From IMG/VR virus record IMGVR_UViG_3300010885_048571, positions 1 through 43,731 of that record: DNA of 43,731 nucleotides. One strand, given 5' to 3'. This stretch comes from a virus. Shown here one piece after another: positions 23,647-28,612 of this stretch. Position 1 is the stretch's first letter. Each line of letters starts with the position of its first letter. Under the pieces are notes generated by a model that worked only from the letters and a program-made list of their open reading frames with translations, searched no databases and was not told the DNA's origin. A program made the position numbers and the translations under genes.

Positions 23647-25311
23647 ATGAGTAGGTCTAAAAACACAATTAGGTTTTCGGACTTCTCAACGATTCCGATA
23701 AAGCTGAAATATACGTCTTCGTACACTAGCTCATCTTTAAATGCAGCTGGGATTACGATATATTCAGGAAATAATGGTGCAGTTAATATTTCTGGATCAG
23801 TTGAAAAAACTACGGTTAATTATATTACTACTAGACATTTATACTATAGTAATTATTTAACTGGGTCTAATCTTACCACAACTTCTAGTTATGATAATTT
23901 TTTGCAGTCAAGTGCTGCATCTGGATCTAATGACTGGGACAATAGATATTTTCCCACTGAATCTAATTCACAGATTAAAGTAATATCTATTCCAAGACAG
24001 GTTTACGGAGAAAGAATTTCTAGAGGTGGATTTTATATGTCCTCATCAGCTTATCAAATTATAGACGATGGCAATGGAAATGTAATAGATAGTAAAATAT
24101 CAAATACTCACGTAGGAAACATAATATACGGACAAGGAATAGTAGTGGTTACCAACCAAGATTACATCAATATATTTGATTTACCTACAACCACTACAAC
24201 TAGTACAACTAGTACAAGTACAACGATAGTGCCAACCACAACCAGTACGACTACAAGCACTAGTACTGCAGCGCCAACTACTACAAGTACGACAACGTCA
24301 ACTACTACGCCGACGCCTACAACGACGTCTACTACTACCAGTACAACTACGCCTACTCCGACTACTACTAGCACGACAACTAGTACAACTACGCCAGTAC
24401 CAACTACGACGTCTACTACTACCAGTACAACTACGCCAGTACCAACTACTACTAGTACAACGACTTCGACAACAACAATACCTCCAACAACTACTAGTAC
24501 AACGACTTCGACTACGACTCAAGCGTGTACTACATATACATGTACAAACAATGATTCAGGTCCAAGATCATTATCATATATAGATTGTAATGGTACCACA
24601 GTGAGCTATCCAAATGTAGGATCTGGTGTTACAATTGGACCTTTTTGCGCACAAAATGGAACATTGACCTTAGGAGCGCCATCTCAATGGACAGTTAATA
24701 ACCTTGGATCATGTACTACGACTAGTACAACAACATCAACAACAACAACAGTACCTCCAACCACGACGTCTACTACGACTAGTACAACTACATTGACACC
24801 AACCACAACTAGTACAACGACTTCTACTACTACGCCAGTGCCGACTACTACAAGTACGACAACGTCGACTACAACAGTACCTCCAACCACGACGTCTACT
24901 ACTACCAGTACAACTACATTGACACCAACCACAACTAGTACAACGACATCAACAACAACAGTACCTCCAACAACAACGTCGACTACTACTAGTACGACCA
25001 CTCCGGCTCCTACTACGACTAGTACAACAACGTCGACTACAACACCAACACCAACTACTACTAGTACCACAACTAGTACTACTACGGCGGCACCAACATA
25101 TTATTATTATACAGGAAATTATACCCCTGATTGCGCTGGATTTACTGCAATGGGAGTTGTAATTAGAGCAACAGTAAATTCTTTAACAAATGGTAACTAT
25201 ACTAGAGTAATAAACAGCGCAAGTGGATGGTTCTACATTACTGCCCCTAACCCAGGAACTAGTTATACTTACGAATCAGATGACAGTCAAAATGTTTCTT
25301 GTGGATATTAA
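23647..25311 (+). CDS. Mucin-like Thr/Ser/Pro-rich virion protein (likely glycosylated fibre or decoration)
   Basis: A 554-residue protein. Residues 1-178 are a structural N-domain. Residues ~179-290 and ~356-482 are two mucin-like tracts of 14-residue units (two variable residues, P, then TTTSTTTSTTT), seven units in the first and eight in the second. Between them a small cysteine-containing domain has CTTYTC, YIDC, FCA and GSC; a C-terminal domain also has two Cys. Dense Thr/Ser with Pro is the classical O-glycosylation substrate. The next four genes are sugar- and methyl-transferases. Virion location is inferred from the preceding fibre genes. Confidence 0.7.
   Translation: MSRSKNTIRFSDFSTIPIKLKYTSSYTSSSLNAAGITIYSGNNGAVNISGSVEKTTVNYITTRHLYYSNYLTGSNLTTTSSYDNFLQSSAASGSNDWDNRYFPTESNSQIKVISIPRQVYGERISRGGFYMSSSAYQIIDDGNGNVIDSKISNTHVGNIIYGQGIVVVTNQDYINIFDLPTTTTTSTTSTSTTIVPTTTSTTTSTSTAAPTTTSTTTSTTTPTPTTTSTTTSTTTPTPTTTSTTTSTTTPVPTTTSTTTSTTTPVPTTTSTTTSTTTIPPTTTSTTTSTTTQACTTYTCTNNDSGPRSLSYIDCNGTTVSYPNVGSGVTIGPFCAQNGTLTLGAPSQWTVNNLGSCTTTSTTTSTTTTVPPTTTSTTTSTTTLTPTTTSTTTSTTTPVPTTTSTTTSTTTVPPTTTSTTTSTTTLTPTTTSTTTSTTTVPPTTTSTTTSTTTPAPTTTSTTTSTTTPTPTTTSTTTSTTTAAPTYYYYTGNYTPDCAGFTAMGVVIRATVNSLTNGNYTRVINSASGWFYITAPNPGTSYTYESDDSQNVSCGY
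24183..24516 (+). repeat. 42-bp coding minisatellite, first block (about 7 units)
   Basis: Tandem 42-bp units encode x-x-P-TTTSTTTSTTT. The units differ mainly at synonymous third positions (ACT, ACA, ACG and ACC all occur) and at the two residues before the Pro (IV, AA, PT, PV, IP). Unit number could change by slippage or recombination. Confidence 0.9.
24712..25089 (+). repeat. 42-bp coding minisatellite, second block (about 8 units)
   Basis: Same 14-residue unit as the first block, with VP, LT, PV, PA and PT variants; a VPP/LTP pair of units recurs within the block, as if pairs were duplicated. It starts right after the cysteine-containing domain (GSC) and ends at AAPTYYYY. Confidence 0.9.
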
Positions 25312-25340
25312 AATAACTTTATAAAATCAATAATATAGTT

Positions 25341-26300
25341 ATGAAAAATTTACGTTATATTTGTGTTCAACCACGCATATTATATTATGCGTGGCAGGTA
25401 GAAGTTATGATTAATAATTTCATAAAACATGGAATTAATCCTAACAATATAGATATTCTAATTGCGTGGAATTCTAACGATAAAACATCAGACCCTGATA
25501 ATGTAGAAGCATGGAATAAGCTAGCTTCTCACTATAACTCGGTTAGGTTTTTCTTTTATCAGGATACTAGAAAGAAACCTATTCATTACATTTCATCTGT
25601 TAGACCTAACGTTCTAAAGCAACATTTTAAAGCCTATCCAGAATTAAAAAATGAAGCCATCTTTTATCATGACTGTGATATAGTATTTACAAAAAAACCC
25701 GATTTTAATAAATTTTTGCATGATAATATTTGGTATTTAAGCGATACTAATAGTTACATTAATTCAGATTACATTAAATCGAAAGGTCATGATGTATATA
25801 ATAAGATGTGTGAAATAGTAGAAATTGATAAATTGATACCCAAATTGATGAACTCCAACTCAGGAGGTGCTCAATATCTAATGAAAAATGTAGATGATCT
25901 ATATTGGGAAAAAGTAGAAGAAGACTCTGAGCAACTGTTTTACCAAATAACAGAACTAAATAAAGAAAAAAAAGCAAACGATCCTTCATATCATGAACTA
26001 CAGATTTGGTGCGCTGATATGTGGGCAGTATTATGGAATGGCTGGTTAAGAGGAAATGAAACTAAAGTTGTGCCTGAATTGGATTTTAGTTGGGCCACAG
26101 ATGCCGTAGACCAATGGGATAAAACTGCCATATACCATAATGCAGGAGTTACCTGTTCTTGCGGAAGACAATTCTATAAGGCTCAATACATGGATAGTTT
26201 ACCTTATGATATAGATATAGAAAATTTTACTAGCCAAAAAAATGGATATAATTACGTTAACGAAATAAAAGAAACCGCAAAAAAATCATGTTTAATATGA
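25341..26300 (+). CDS. Glycosyltransferase (GT-A type, DxD)
   Basis: A 319-residue protein: a Rossmann-like N-terminus (residues 1-60), then AIFYHDCDIVF near 107-117, a DxD-type site (DCD) for a metal and nucleotide-sugar, and a later SGGAQYLMK and YHNAGV typical of GT-A acceptor-side segments. No transmembrane segment, so it is cytoplasmic. It starts 29 bp after the mucin-like gene and is the first of four genes with overlapping starts. It would transfer a sugar to protein or glycan; acceptance of the Thr-rich tracts is inference. The GTTATG start context (ATAGTTATG) is shared with other genes. Confidence 0.78.
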   Translation: MKNLRYICVQPRILYYAWQVEVMINNFIKHGINPNNIDILIAWNSNDKTSDPDNVEAWNKLASHYNSVRFFFYQDTRKKPIHYISSVRPNVLKQHFKAYPELKNEAIFYHDCDIVFTKKPDFNKFLHDNIWYLSDTNSYINSDYIKSKGHDVYNKMCEIVEIDKLIPKLMNSNSGGAQYLMKNVDDLYWEKVEEDSEQLFYQITELNKEKKANDPSYHELQIWCADMWAVLWNGWLRGNETKVVPELDFSWATDAVDQWDKTAIYHNAGVTCSCGRQFYKAQYMDSLPYDIDIENFTSQKNGYNYVNEIKETAKKSCLI

Positions 26301-26878
26301 TACAAGAAATATACAACAACAAACCAGAGTCGATTCATGATGTTATACCAAGTGAATTTTTTACAAAATATGATTCTTATGATTATGTATGGAGTGGTAA
26401 TTGTTTTGAGTGGTATTGGGCGTTAGGAAAAACACTTAAACCAAAAACTTTTTTAGAAATTGGAATAAGATTTGGGTTTAGTTTTTTACCTACCATTCAA
26501 GCCTCTTCTGATCTAGAATACGCTTTAGGCTGGGATCTAGAAACATATGGTAATAATAATATCGCGAATGAAAACATAGGTAAATACTATACAGGAAATG
26601 CTAAGTGGGAAATATTTCATATAGATTCTCAGTTAGAAACAGAATTACCACAATTTTTTGATTTAATTTCTATTGATGGATGTCATGATTATGACTGTAA
26701 AGTACATGATTTAAAATTATGTATAGATAAATGTAATTACGTTATACTGGATGATTACGATTATCATGTGGATGTAAGAAATGCAACTGATTTTTTCTTA
26801 AATGAATATAAAGATCACCTTGAATGGAATCAATATATTCCAACTTTTAGAGGATCTCAACTTATTAAATTTAAATAA
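26297..26878 (+). CDS. Class I SAM-dependent methyltransferase-like protein
   Basis: TFLEIGIRFGFSF is the SAM-binding motif I, and FDLISIDGCHDYDCKVHDL ... YVILDDYDYH gives the downstream strand and acidic residues of a Methyltransf_24-like fold. I chose the ATG at 26297, which overlaps the previous stop as ATGA like its neighbours (193 residues); an ATG at 26288 is also possible. Sandwiched between glycosyltransferases, it may O-methylate sugars or act on the same substrate. Confidence 0.7.
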   Translation: MIQEIYNNKPESIHDVIPSEFFTKYDSYDYVWSGNCFEWYWALGKTLKPKTFLEIGIRFGFSFLPTIQASSDLEYALGWDLETYGNNNIANENIGKYYTGNAKWEIFHIDSQLETELPQFFDLISIDGCHDYDCKVHDLKLCIDKCNYVILDDYDYHVDVRNATDFFLNEYKDHLEWNQYIPTFRGSQLIKFK

Positions 26879-27501
26879 TGGAGAAAATAATTCATCAGAT
26901 ATGGGTAGGAGATTTTAAAATTCCTCATAGAGAACAAGAATTAAGTAATAGTTTAAAACAACTTCACTCTGATTATAATTATATCTTTTGGACTTCTGCT
27001 CCGGAATTACCTAGCAACATCCAGTATTGGTATGATATATTTTATAAAAATAAAAACTACGTATTTTGCGCAGATTTATTAAGATTATGGGTAGTATACA
27101 AATATGGGGGATTTTATTTAGACATAGATTTTAATATTAAAAATAGATTAGATCCATTATTTGATCACGAATCTGTATTTTTTTATCATAATGATACAGA
27201 CTATACTATTCCAAACAACTTAATTGCGTCAACTAAAGGGTCACCTATCTTAAAATATTGTTTAGATAATGTAAAAACAGATTGTAGTTGGTACGGTCCA
27301 AGTTGGCTAGGGCAAACAATTAAAAACTATTTAGAATTACCTTACGAAATACCGCAACAGCCCGTAATGAAAAAATTAAATTCTTTGAATATTCATTATC
27401 ATGAATACTACGCGTTCGAAAATATATATGGTAAACATTTGTCTCTATATAGTTGGGAACCTAAAACATGGGAAAGATTAAATAAAAATGAACAATTATG
27501 A
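26878..27501 (+). CDS. GT32-type glycosyltransferase
   Basis: This 207-residue protein shows the GT32 (Och1/capsular mannosyl-type) pattern: IIHQIWVGDFKIP at the N-terminus, FCADLLRLWVVYKYGGFYLDIDF near residues 63-85 with the DID metal site, and a later WLGQTIK. This compact family needs no transmembrane helix. It overlaps the preceding stop by one base (TAATG) and the next gene by ATGA, so the cassette is probably translated as one unit. Good confidence for the family; acceptor unknown. Confidence 0.85.
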   Translation: MEKIIHQIWVGDFKIPHREQELSNSLKQLHSDYNYIFWTSAPELPSNIQYWYDIFYKNKNYVFCADLLRLWVVYKYGGFYLDIDFNIKNRLDPLFDHESVFFYHNDTDYTIPNNLIASTKGSPILKYCLDNVKTDCSWYGPSWLGQTIKNYLELPYEIPQQPVMKKLNSLNIHYHEYYAFENIYGKHLSLYSWEPKTWERLNKNEQL

Positions 27502-28286
27502 AAAAAGTAAGTTTTGTCTGCACAACATATAGAAGATTCACGTGTGTGGAAAGAATAGTTGCTCAATACTATGAGCAGACTTATAAGAATAAAGAATTAA
27601 TTATATTCAATACAGATATGGAGTATCCATATTTTACCAATATAGAAGATCCTTCAATTATTATTGTTAACAACAATACAGACTACATCACATCAGAATC
27701 GTATAAGAATCGAGGTCAAATATGTAGAGACGCCATAATCCACGCAACTGGTGATTATTTTATGCTTGCCGATGATGATGATATCTATTTGCCATGGCAT
27801 CTACAACAAGCTGTAGATGGGATAGTTGATAATCAAAAAGACGCATGGAAGCCAGAGAGAAGTTTCTTCGCTACCCAACATAAATTAGAAATGTGTCAAA
27901 ATACTTTAGAAGCCAGTGTTATTGTTAAAATGGATAGGATTAGGGAAATAGGATTTAGAAGTGATTTAACAGGATACGAAGGATTAAGTTGGTATACTAA
28001 ATTAAGAGACGAAGGAAATCTAGATGAACACAATAAAAATTATGTTCCATCCTATTGTTTTAATTGGTCTGATCCATCTGAAGTGGCAGGGCATAAGCAA
28101 AGTGGAGATATAAATAATCCTAATAATTTTGATAATCACAAAGAAGCAAGTAGAGATTATGCAACAAAAGAATTATCATTAGTGTCTATTGGAGATACGT
28201 ACACTAAATATTATGACTATCTAAGAAATAATCTCAATGAATTTAATCAAGCGTATTATACAAAATACGCCAGTCAATATTTATAA
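27498..28286 (+). CDS. GT2-family glycosyltransferase
   Basis: KKVSFVCTTYRRF at the N-terminus of this 262-residue protein is the first strand of the GT2 GT-A fold, followed by the NTD... segment and YFMLADDDDIYLPWHL, the DXD-like metal site. It is a soluble inverting-type enzyme of the sort that builds surface glycans in bacteria and phages. It is the last of four overlapping genes (ATGA with the GT32 gene). Together the cassette could attach a short oligosaccharide to a virion protein. Confidence 0.85.
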   Translation: MKKVSFVCTTYRRFTCVERIVAQYYEQTYKNKELIIFNTDMEYPYFTNIEDPSIIIVNNNTDYITSESYKNRGQICRDAIIHATGDYFMLADDDDIYLPWHLQQAVDGIVDNQKDAWKPERSFFATQHKLEMCQNTLEASVIVKMDRIREIGFRSDLTGYEGLSWYTKLRDEGNLDEHNKNYVPSYCFNWSDPSEVAGHKQSGDINNPNNFDNHKEASRDYATKELSLVSIGDTYTKYYDYLRNNLNEFNQAYYTKYASQYL

Positions 28287-28288
28287 TT

Positions 28289-28612
28289 ATGCCGATATCT
28301 TATGTACCTTATGTAATGACAATAGCTGGAGAATCAACAATCTATCAGAATGAAGTGAGATGTCATGTATCAGAGAACGATTTTAATTATTCTTTAAATC
28401 CAAGTGCTATGAATTGGATGCCAAGTGGTAGTGGATATTCTACAGACGGTACAGTATCACCTCTATTAACTGGATCTGATTTTCTGCCTTACGCAACTAC
28501 AGTAGGATTATTCAATGACGCTGATCAATTATTAGCAGTTGGAAAATTATCTACCCCATATCCAATACCTAGAAATACCGATATGACATTTGTTATCAGA
28601 TACGATAGCTAG
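28289..28612 (+). CDS. Small structural protein sharing a module with the 347-residue fibre protein
   Basis: A 107-residue protein in which NDFNYSLNPSAM ... ATTVGLFNDADQLLAVGKLSTP aligns by eye with the C-terminus of the protein at 22600-23643. It is therefore a stand-alone copy of that module, separated from it by the mucin and glycosylation genes. It starts 2 bp after the GT2 gene, and an ATATTTATT element and the endonuclease gene follow it. Probably a tail or fibre tip component. Confidence 0.6.
   Translation: MPISYVPYVMTIAGESTIYQNEVRCHVSENDFNYSLNPSAMNWMPSGSGYSTDGTVSPLLTGSDFLPYATTVGLFNDADQLLAVGKLSTPYPIPRNTDMTFVIRYDS

Follow-up and report, generated by a model that had tools for sequence, protein, structure and literature searches.

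Glycosylation of phage particles by enzymes of the phage itself has been described for mycobacteriophages (Che8 and its relatives); the glycans are reported to sit at the C-terminal ends of the capsid and tail tube subunits and to act as an antibody shield (PMC12619734, PMC11256854). Here we analysed 43,731 bases of viral DNA (IMG/VR record IMGVR_UViG_3300010885_048571, positions 1 to 43,731; the window hereafter means this whole stretch), in which a threonine (Thr)-rich repeat protein is followed by a cassette of four genes, P0002 to P0005, encoding a glycosyltransferase (GT), a methyltransferase and two further GTs, in this order (Table 1). The locus is best explained as a set of phage genes for the O-glycosylation of a virion protein, in which a conserved enzyme with a predicted GT-A fold, P0002, would start the glycan on the Thr tracts; judged from sequences and structure models, we give this reading a probability of about 0.84.

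As in the mycobacteriophage system, the putative glycosyltransferases are encoded by the phage, and relatives of the locus in Firmicutes phages carry poly-Thr C-terminal tails that also sit on capsid and tail proteins. Unlike in the mycobacteriophages, the proposed acceptor in the window resembles a fibre and has its tracts in the interior of the chain, and one cassette gene encodes a methyltransferase; in addition, the 74 phage records matched by P0002 with tblastn (E 1e-5) belong mostly to Lactobacillus, Enterococcus, Staphylococcus and Lactococcus phages, and none is named Mycobacterium phage. A hydroxyl-residue-rich repeat acceptor beside a glycosyltransferase cluster is also a feature of serine-rich repeat protein (SRRP) adhesin glycosylation with GtfA/GtfB and accessory Sec, and from the same field the pneumococcal GlyE is found among the structural matches of the P0002 model. 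In contrast to the SRRP systems, the window locus is a phage locus, and a GtfA/GtfB pair was not recognised in the cassette with NCBIfam (P0002 to P0004 without a match, P0005 only weakly similar to other models, those for PglI and WcaA). The locus would add a variant to known phage virion glycosylation, possibly with a general rule behind it.

The repeat protein contains 195 Thr, 79 serine (Ser) and 38 proline (Pro) residues and exactly 15 units of TTTSTTTSTTT, in agreement with the number and position of the repeats given in an earlier note on this DNA. A scan of all open reading frames (ORFs) of the window found no other Thr tract, the next highest Thr content being 16%. Codons of the repeat units agree at 91% of first and second positions and at 37% of third positions, and all four Thr codons are used (75/66/37/17), which shows that the repeat is a protein-level repeat that is old and maintained. 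The same third-position divergence and codon use rule out a fresh product of DNA slippage. The N-terminal domain (N-domain) is common to many phage proteins with or without Thr tracts, and among its viral matches are some with annotated laminin-G and ConA-like lectin domains. Its fold had no PDB match at E 0.001, the four viral models matched at this threshold are uncharacterised, unnamed or annotated as laminin-G, and a search of its sequence against the phage collection gave nothing at E 1e-3. The domain is a probable virion anchor, through which the repeat protein, probably an accessory of the tail-fibre type, would be attached to the particle.

P0002 matched phrog_4417 over its full length (E 2e-63, residues 5-312 against profile positions 2-291 of 293). 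PHROGs lists the function of this family as unknown, and its association with poly-Thr virion proteins comes from the present analysis. Searches of P0002 against Pfam and NCBIfam gave no match at E 0.01, and a sequence search of solved structures gave only ESKIMO 1 (E 0.13), which is of no use. The AlphaFold model (36 sequences; predicted local distance difference test, pLDDT, 96.3; predicted template modelling score, pTM, 0.92) has a GT-A fold and forms one globular domain without low-confidence or membrane-like segments. Its best structural match is glycogenin (Z 15.4, root-mean-square deviation 3.4, 226 aligned residues), further matches are LgtC, UGGT, GlyE and LARGE1 (Z 13-15), and the nearest folds of the model are those of GT8/GT24. 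The motif D111-x-D113 and H266 are invariant in two sets of aligned relatives (36/36 and 11/11), and the predicted fold together with this DxD motif places P0002 in the GT-A superfamily. Several of the matched GT-A families act on proteins or protein-bound glycans; the fold likeness of the model as such indicates no particular acceptor. The earlier note had called the system mucin-type. Tandem Thr/Ser/Pro repeats as presumed acceptors of dense O-glycans are indeed shared with eukaryotic mucins, and the Pfam Mucin family matched two related Thr-rich proteins weakly, below cut-off. Unlike in the mucin system, no GT27 enzyme was recognised and the setting is the bacterial cytoplasm. The chemistry implied by the name, a link through N-acetylgalactosamine, is not supported by the nearest folds of P0002, those of GT8/GT24. 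The 50 fold matches listed do not contain GT27, a result with which membership of GT27 is still compatible.

The association of the enzyme with Thr tracts was followed along four sampling routes, which point to a phage-encoded glycosyltransferase linked by co-occurrence to a candidate virion acceptor. Tracts were called in 20-residue windows for the scan by Thr codons and the N-domain set, and in 14-residue windows for the enzyme set, the bacterial loci and the ORFs of the window; gene calling was mechanical throughout. The enzyme set started from the best 80 of 300 relatives of P0002 in viruses, of which 46 loci remained after removal of 31 redundant ones and three without upstream sequence. 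The directly preceding gene contained a Thr tract in 30 of these 46 loci, compared with 20 of the 625 other genes there (p 2e-27), which supports the view that repeat protein and glycosyltransferase belong together. In the other 16 loci, the tract was separated from the enzyme by one gene (4), located elsewhere in the locus (4) or absent (8).

A scan by Thr codons only, with a DNA pattern of the TTTSTTTSTTT type over viral contigs, yielded at least 80 loci and 26 usable tract ORFs. The enzyme directly follows nine of these 26, compared with 2 of 649 other ORFs. Several of these tract ORFs have no N-domain like that of the window protein, and therefore the pairing of enzyme and tract is not the inheritance of a single fibre gene. 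In the opposite direction, relatives of the N-domain were fetched regardless of the presence of the enzyme (best 80 of 281 confirmed; 54 loci after removal of 13 redundant ones, nine with cut ORFs and four without room). Tract and enzyme occurred together in 11 loci, the tract alone in two, the enzyme alone in two and neither in 39 (p 6e-8). In one of the two loci with a tract only (L094), the enzyme is present a few genes further on; in the other (L095) it is absent from the 55-kb record. Eight whole records (8 to 174 kb, including that of L095) of N-domain phages lacking the enzyme at the fetched locus were searched, and it was found in none of them.

The enzyme was also found in cultured phages and prophages. 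Twelve of the 74 isolate records and then two more (9183 and RQ1) were examined, picked for variety and not at random. In 10 of the 12, the next upstream gene has a Thr-rich stretch (the Enterococcus phage phiFL1A, Semele, PMBT8, the Lactobacillus phage iLp84, the Chryseobacterium phage MA9V-3, 1_EfsPF36, 4995_1, DH5, R3.3 and ENFP1, the last with a looser TTVAP repeat); in PT1-4 such a stretch lies within 1.5 kb of the enzyme, and in Planchet it occupies an alternative reading frame where the capsid gene ends. The major tail protein of phiFL1A has a poly-Thr C-terminal tail, and the enzyme gene starts at the last base of the tail gene. Bacterial genomes contained 57 enzyme loci, 35 in Firmicutes (L307-L341) and 22 in others. 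A poly-Thr stretch on proteins of the capsid or tail type is present in all 35 Firmicutes prophage loci, in 29 according to the threshold and in six that failed it and were accepted by eye; among the 22 others, a tract was found in L285 and L287 only. Two poly-Thr-tailed proteins were scanned and both match Phage_capsid. As a control, homologues of the capsid protein were fetched regardless of the enzyme and with a tail-free query (best 80 of 497; 18 loci after removal of 48 redundant ones and 14 without room): tail and enzyme were both present in four loci and both absent in 14, and none was discordant (p 3e-4).

These data bear on the possibility that the enzymes modify the host surface (lipopolysaccharide, capsule or wall polymer) against superinfection and that the Thr tracts are mere flexible linkers of fibres. 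GT2 and GT32 include many surface-polysaccharide enzymes, and the weak resemblance of P0005 to PglI and WcaA would fit here, too. Changes of the host surface by phage glycosyltransferases are known or have been proposed (PMC12619734, PMC8008677). Such a function would give no reason, however, for the enzyme to go along with poly-Thr tails on HK97-type capsid and tail proteins or for these tails to be missing from capsid homologues without the enzyme, and the P0002 model, being a single globular domain, offers no membrane-like segment; we consider it improbable. A glycosylation of modified bases in the phage DNA is a known role of phage glycosyltransferases (cited in PMC12619734), but the cassette sits among virion genes and associates with Thr tracts, and PHROGs scans of 30 window proteins recognised no base-modification gene; we consider this explanation very improbable. 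A decoration of the phage's own tail or capsid, as the earlier note had it, is the best reading, since proteins related to P0002 occur together with Thr tracts of capsid and tail proteins. Its description as self-contained is not supported: no sugar-nucleotide gene was recognised among the same 30 proteins, and the record may be a fragment.

Several observations weigh against the glycosylation of Thr tracts by this enzyme family. Co-occurrence by itself is no proof that Thr is the acceptor, and in the scan by Thr codons the enzyme was not directly downstream of 17 of the 26 tract ORFs. A related group, 18 of the 80 unfiltered loci, has unrelated genes upstream of the enzyme; seven records of this group were searched whole, revealing a tract elsewhere in three and none in the four shorter ones (14-30 kb). 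In a small clade (L032, L036, L037 and L133), the enzyme lies beside an N-domain protein that is free of tracts, and no tract was found on the contigs (11-55 kb). Unless the records are incomplete, these four loci are real counter-examples, and a cassette without a Thr-rich partner, which the earlier note had named as an outcome that would speak against it, occurs in a minority of relatives, confined to one small clade. Finally, most chromosomal relatives in Bacteroidota are longer proteins without nearby tracts. Of the 12 enzyme-bearing records without an adjacent tract that were searched, seven have a tract elsewhere, in favour of the association (six records of 35-67 kb and one of 28 kb), L078 among them being a weak case because the reversed control pattern matches as well; in the other five (9-30 kb) none was found elsewhere either. 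A further record searched whole, L065, has a Thr-type stretch, and L121 encodes the same short N-domain-only protein as the small clade, with no enzyme adjoining and no tract found.

Two side observations concern these exceptions. In L036 (10954-11985) and L037, the enzyme and a radical SAM/SPASM protein adjoin the N-domain protein without Thr tract, an arrangement that is possibly a different peptide modification. The longer enzyme relatives (about 480-590 amino acids) were found in L289-L306, on chromosomes of the Sphingobacterium, Pedobacter and Chitinophaga type; three were scanned, with Glyco_transf_7C above cut-off in one and below it in one, and these proteins may serve another purpose.

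What the data show directly are the genes, their domains, the catalytic motif, the model fold and a strong co-occurrence of this enzyme family with Thr tracts that unrelated phages carry on virion or virion-type proteins. From these we infer the tract as acceptor, the order of the reactions, the sugars, the incorporation into the virion and any advantage, be it shielding, adhesion or protease resistance. The repeat protein would be made late and offer its two long Thr/Ser tracts, where P0002, acting in the infected cell with a sugar nucleotide of the host as donor, would place the first sugar on Thr. Extension of the glycan might then be the task of the GT32-like P0004 and the GT2-like P0005, and capping that of the methyltransferase P0003; the glycosylated protein would be assembled into the tail region. 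The three glycosyltransferases (GT-A/DxD, GT32 and GT2) and the methyltransferase with overlapping starts had been listed in the earlier note and were recovered here by family matches (Table 1), the starts of P0003, P0004 and P0005 overlapping the preceding stops by 13, 1 and 4 nucleotides. P0003 and P0004 had no NCBIfam match, and an alignment of the four dissimilar cassette proteins (A3) was uninformative. In relatives, the genes after the enzyme fall into many clusters, of which the identified ones are mostly GT- or methyltransferase-like: GT2, GT6, GT32 and Fringe-like proteins, methyltransferases of Pfam types 11, 21 and 24, and a radical SAM/SPASM protein. GT61-like and polysialyltransferase-like clusters were both below cut-off, and several clusters had no Pfam match. 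The enzyme beside the tract is the constant member by the selection of the loci; a constant first enzyme with exchanged followers would be the pattern expected from a fixed first step and variable extension. In SRRP systems, too, an invariant first step precedes extension enzymes that vary.

The cassette might also glycosylate the tracts purely as a structural aid, giving rod-like stiffening or protease resistance to a linker, while recognition and immune escape would play no part. This idea belongs to the O-glycosylation reading as a variant and shares its probability. Tracts located between globular domains in the window protein and in many relatives are in line with it, as is the stiffening of such stretches by dense O-glycans known from mucins. 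Many of the tracts in Firmicutes phages, however, are free C-terminal tails and not linkers, and the variable extension genes suggest that the identity of the glycan is under changing selection; we regard a purely structural function as less likely than not.

Taken together, the comparisons suggest that self-made sugar coats on parts of the particle are widespread among phages. We favour, with some reserve, the wider view that poly-Thr is a general glycosylation tag of phages: one ancient family, phrog_4417, would read the tag on proteins of the capsid, tail tube, decoration or fibre type, whether the phage infects Bacteroidota or Firmicutes and whether its tail is contractile or not; exchangeable downstream genes would change the sugar of the coat, and in some phages frameshifting would set the number of tagged capsid or tail subunits. 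A literature link between poly-Thr virion proteins and a glycosyltransferase was not found in titles or abstract starts, most subscription papers being outside the searched library. If the view is correct, an unannotated phage enzyme family obtains a function, and poly-Thr becomes a simple sequence sign that predicts glycosylated virions in many cultured phages of lactic acid bacteria, enterococci and staphylococci. The question why phages glycosylate themselves could then be tested in tractable laboratory systems, and cytoplasmic enzymes that glycosylate Thr repeats in bacteria would be useful for glycoprotein production.

In the Enterococcus phages Planchet (L445 2220-2410) and 9183 (L450 620-900), the capsid gene ends with CCA AAA GCG/GGG TAG after a C. 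This sequence contains a C-CCA-AAA slippery heptamer, and the -1 frame runs directly into a poly-Thr tail ending in AEG; programmed frameshifting is predicted to tag part of the capsid subunits. In the Staphylococcus phages RQ1 (L451 2040-2500) and PT1-4 (L446 1400-1815), the frame of the tail protein ends with STTTTTTTP at CCC TAA, and the +1 frame continues with PKPTTTTTT and a long poly-Thr extension, so that a +1 frameshift lengthening the poly-Thr tag is possible. An extension of the major tail protein by frameshifting is known for SPP1 (review PMC8718954, the text of which gave no hit for 'glycosyl' or 'threonine'). In enzyme-less loci of the capsid set (L367, L369, L382, L423, L434 and similar ones), one and the same other short C-terminal tag, such as EPEGA or GVEG, ends both the major capsid protein and the major tail protein of a phage, as if the tags were exchanged in concert.

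Table 1. Features of the repeat protein locus and its flanks, in window coordinates
Feature	Position	Strand	Basis
Upstream virion-type protein, 347 amino acids	22600..23643	+	Homologue in Flavobacterium phage immuto; neighbour order in loci
Thr-rich repeat protein, 554 amino acids, proposed glycan acceptor	23647..25311	+	ORF, 15 TTTSTTTSTTT units
N-domain, residues 1-180, probable virion anchor	23647..24186	+	Alignments A1, A6; model pLDDT 74
Thr tract 1, residues 181-295	24187..24531	+	Sequence
Cysteine-containing spacer between tracts, residues 296-358	24532..24720	+	Translation; no family match found
Thr tract 2, residues 359-488	24721..25110	+	Sequence
C-terminal domain, residues 489-554 and stop	25111..25311	+	Translation
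P0002 (phrog_4417), conserved GT-A glycosyltransferase, proposed first-sugar transfer to Thr	25341..26300	+	
P0003, S-adenosylmethionine (SAM) methyltransferase, proposed glycan O-methylation	26288..26878	+	Methyltransf_24 (PF13578), 27.8 bits vs cut-off 26.3
P0004, GT32-like, proposed glycan extension	26878..27501	+	Gly_transf_sug (PF04488), 55.6 bits vs cut-off 23
P0005, GT2-like, proposed glycan extension	27498..28286	+	Glycos_transf_2 (PF00535), 25.6 bits vs cut-off 23.3
107-amino-acid protein, related to the C-terminus of the 347-amino-acid protein; 3' edge of the variable cassette	28289..28612	+	

PHROGs scans of the window revealed homologues of T4-type baseplate wedge proteins, a primase and SbcCD-like genes, the wedge homologues being located upstream of the repeat protein and cassette. 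The 347-amino-acid protein is 47% identical to a homologue in the myovirus immuto that lies near annotated tail fibre and tail spike genes, and in the compared loci the N-domain protein is almost always preceded by relatives of it. The earlier statement that fibre genes surround the locus is supported to this extent, while family annotations of their own were not found for the genes flanking the cassette. Since about 10 unfiltered loci without a cassette join the N-domain gene directly to a relative of the 107-amino-acid gene on its 3' side, the cassette occupies a defined slot. The iterated profiles for the 347- and 107-amino-acid proteins merged (313 hits each); no counts were based on them, and they served as neighbour markers only. 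A member of the Bacteroidota is the probable host, as relatives occur in Flavobacterium and Chryseobacterium phages and in contigs of Bacteroidota assemblies. Shortly after the cassette, the window contains a gene for Phage endonuclease I (PF05367; 28634-29050), and a gene of similar size is kept at this place in relatives.

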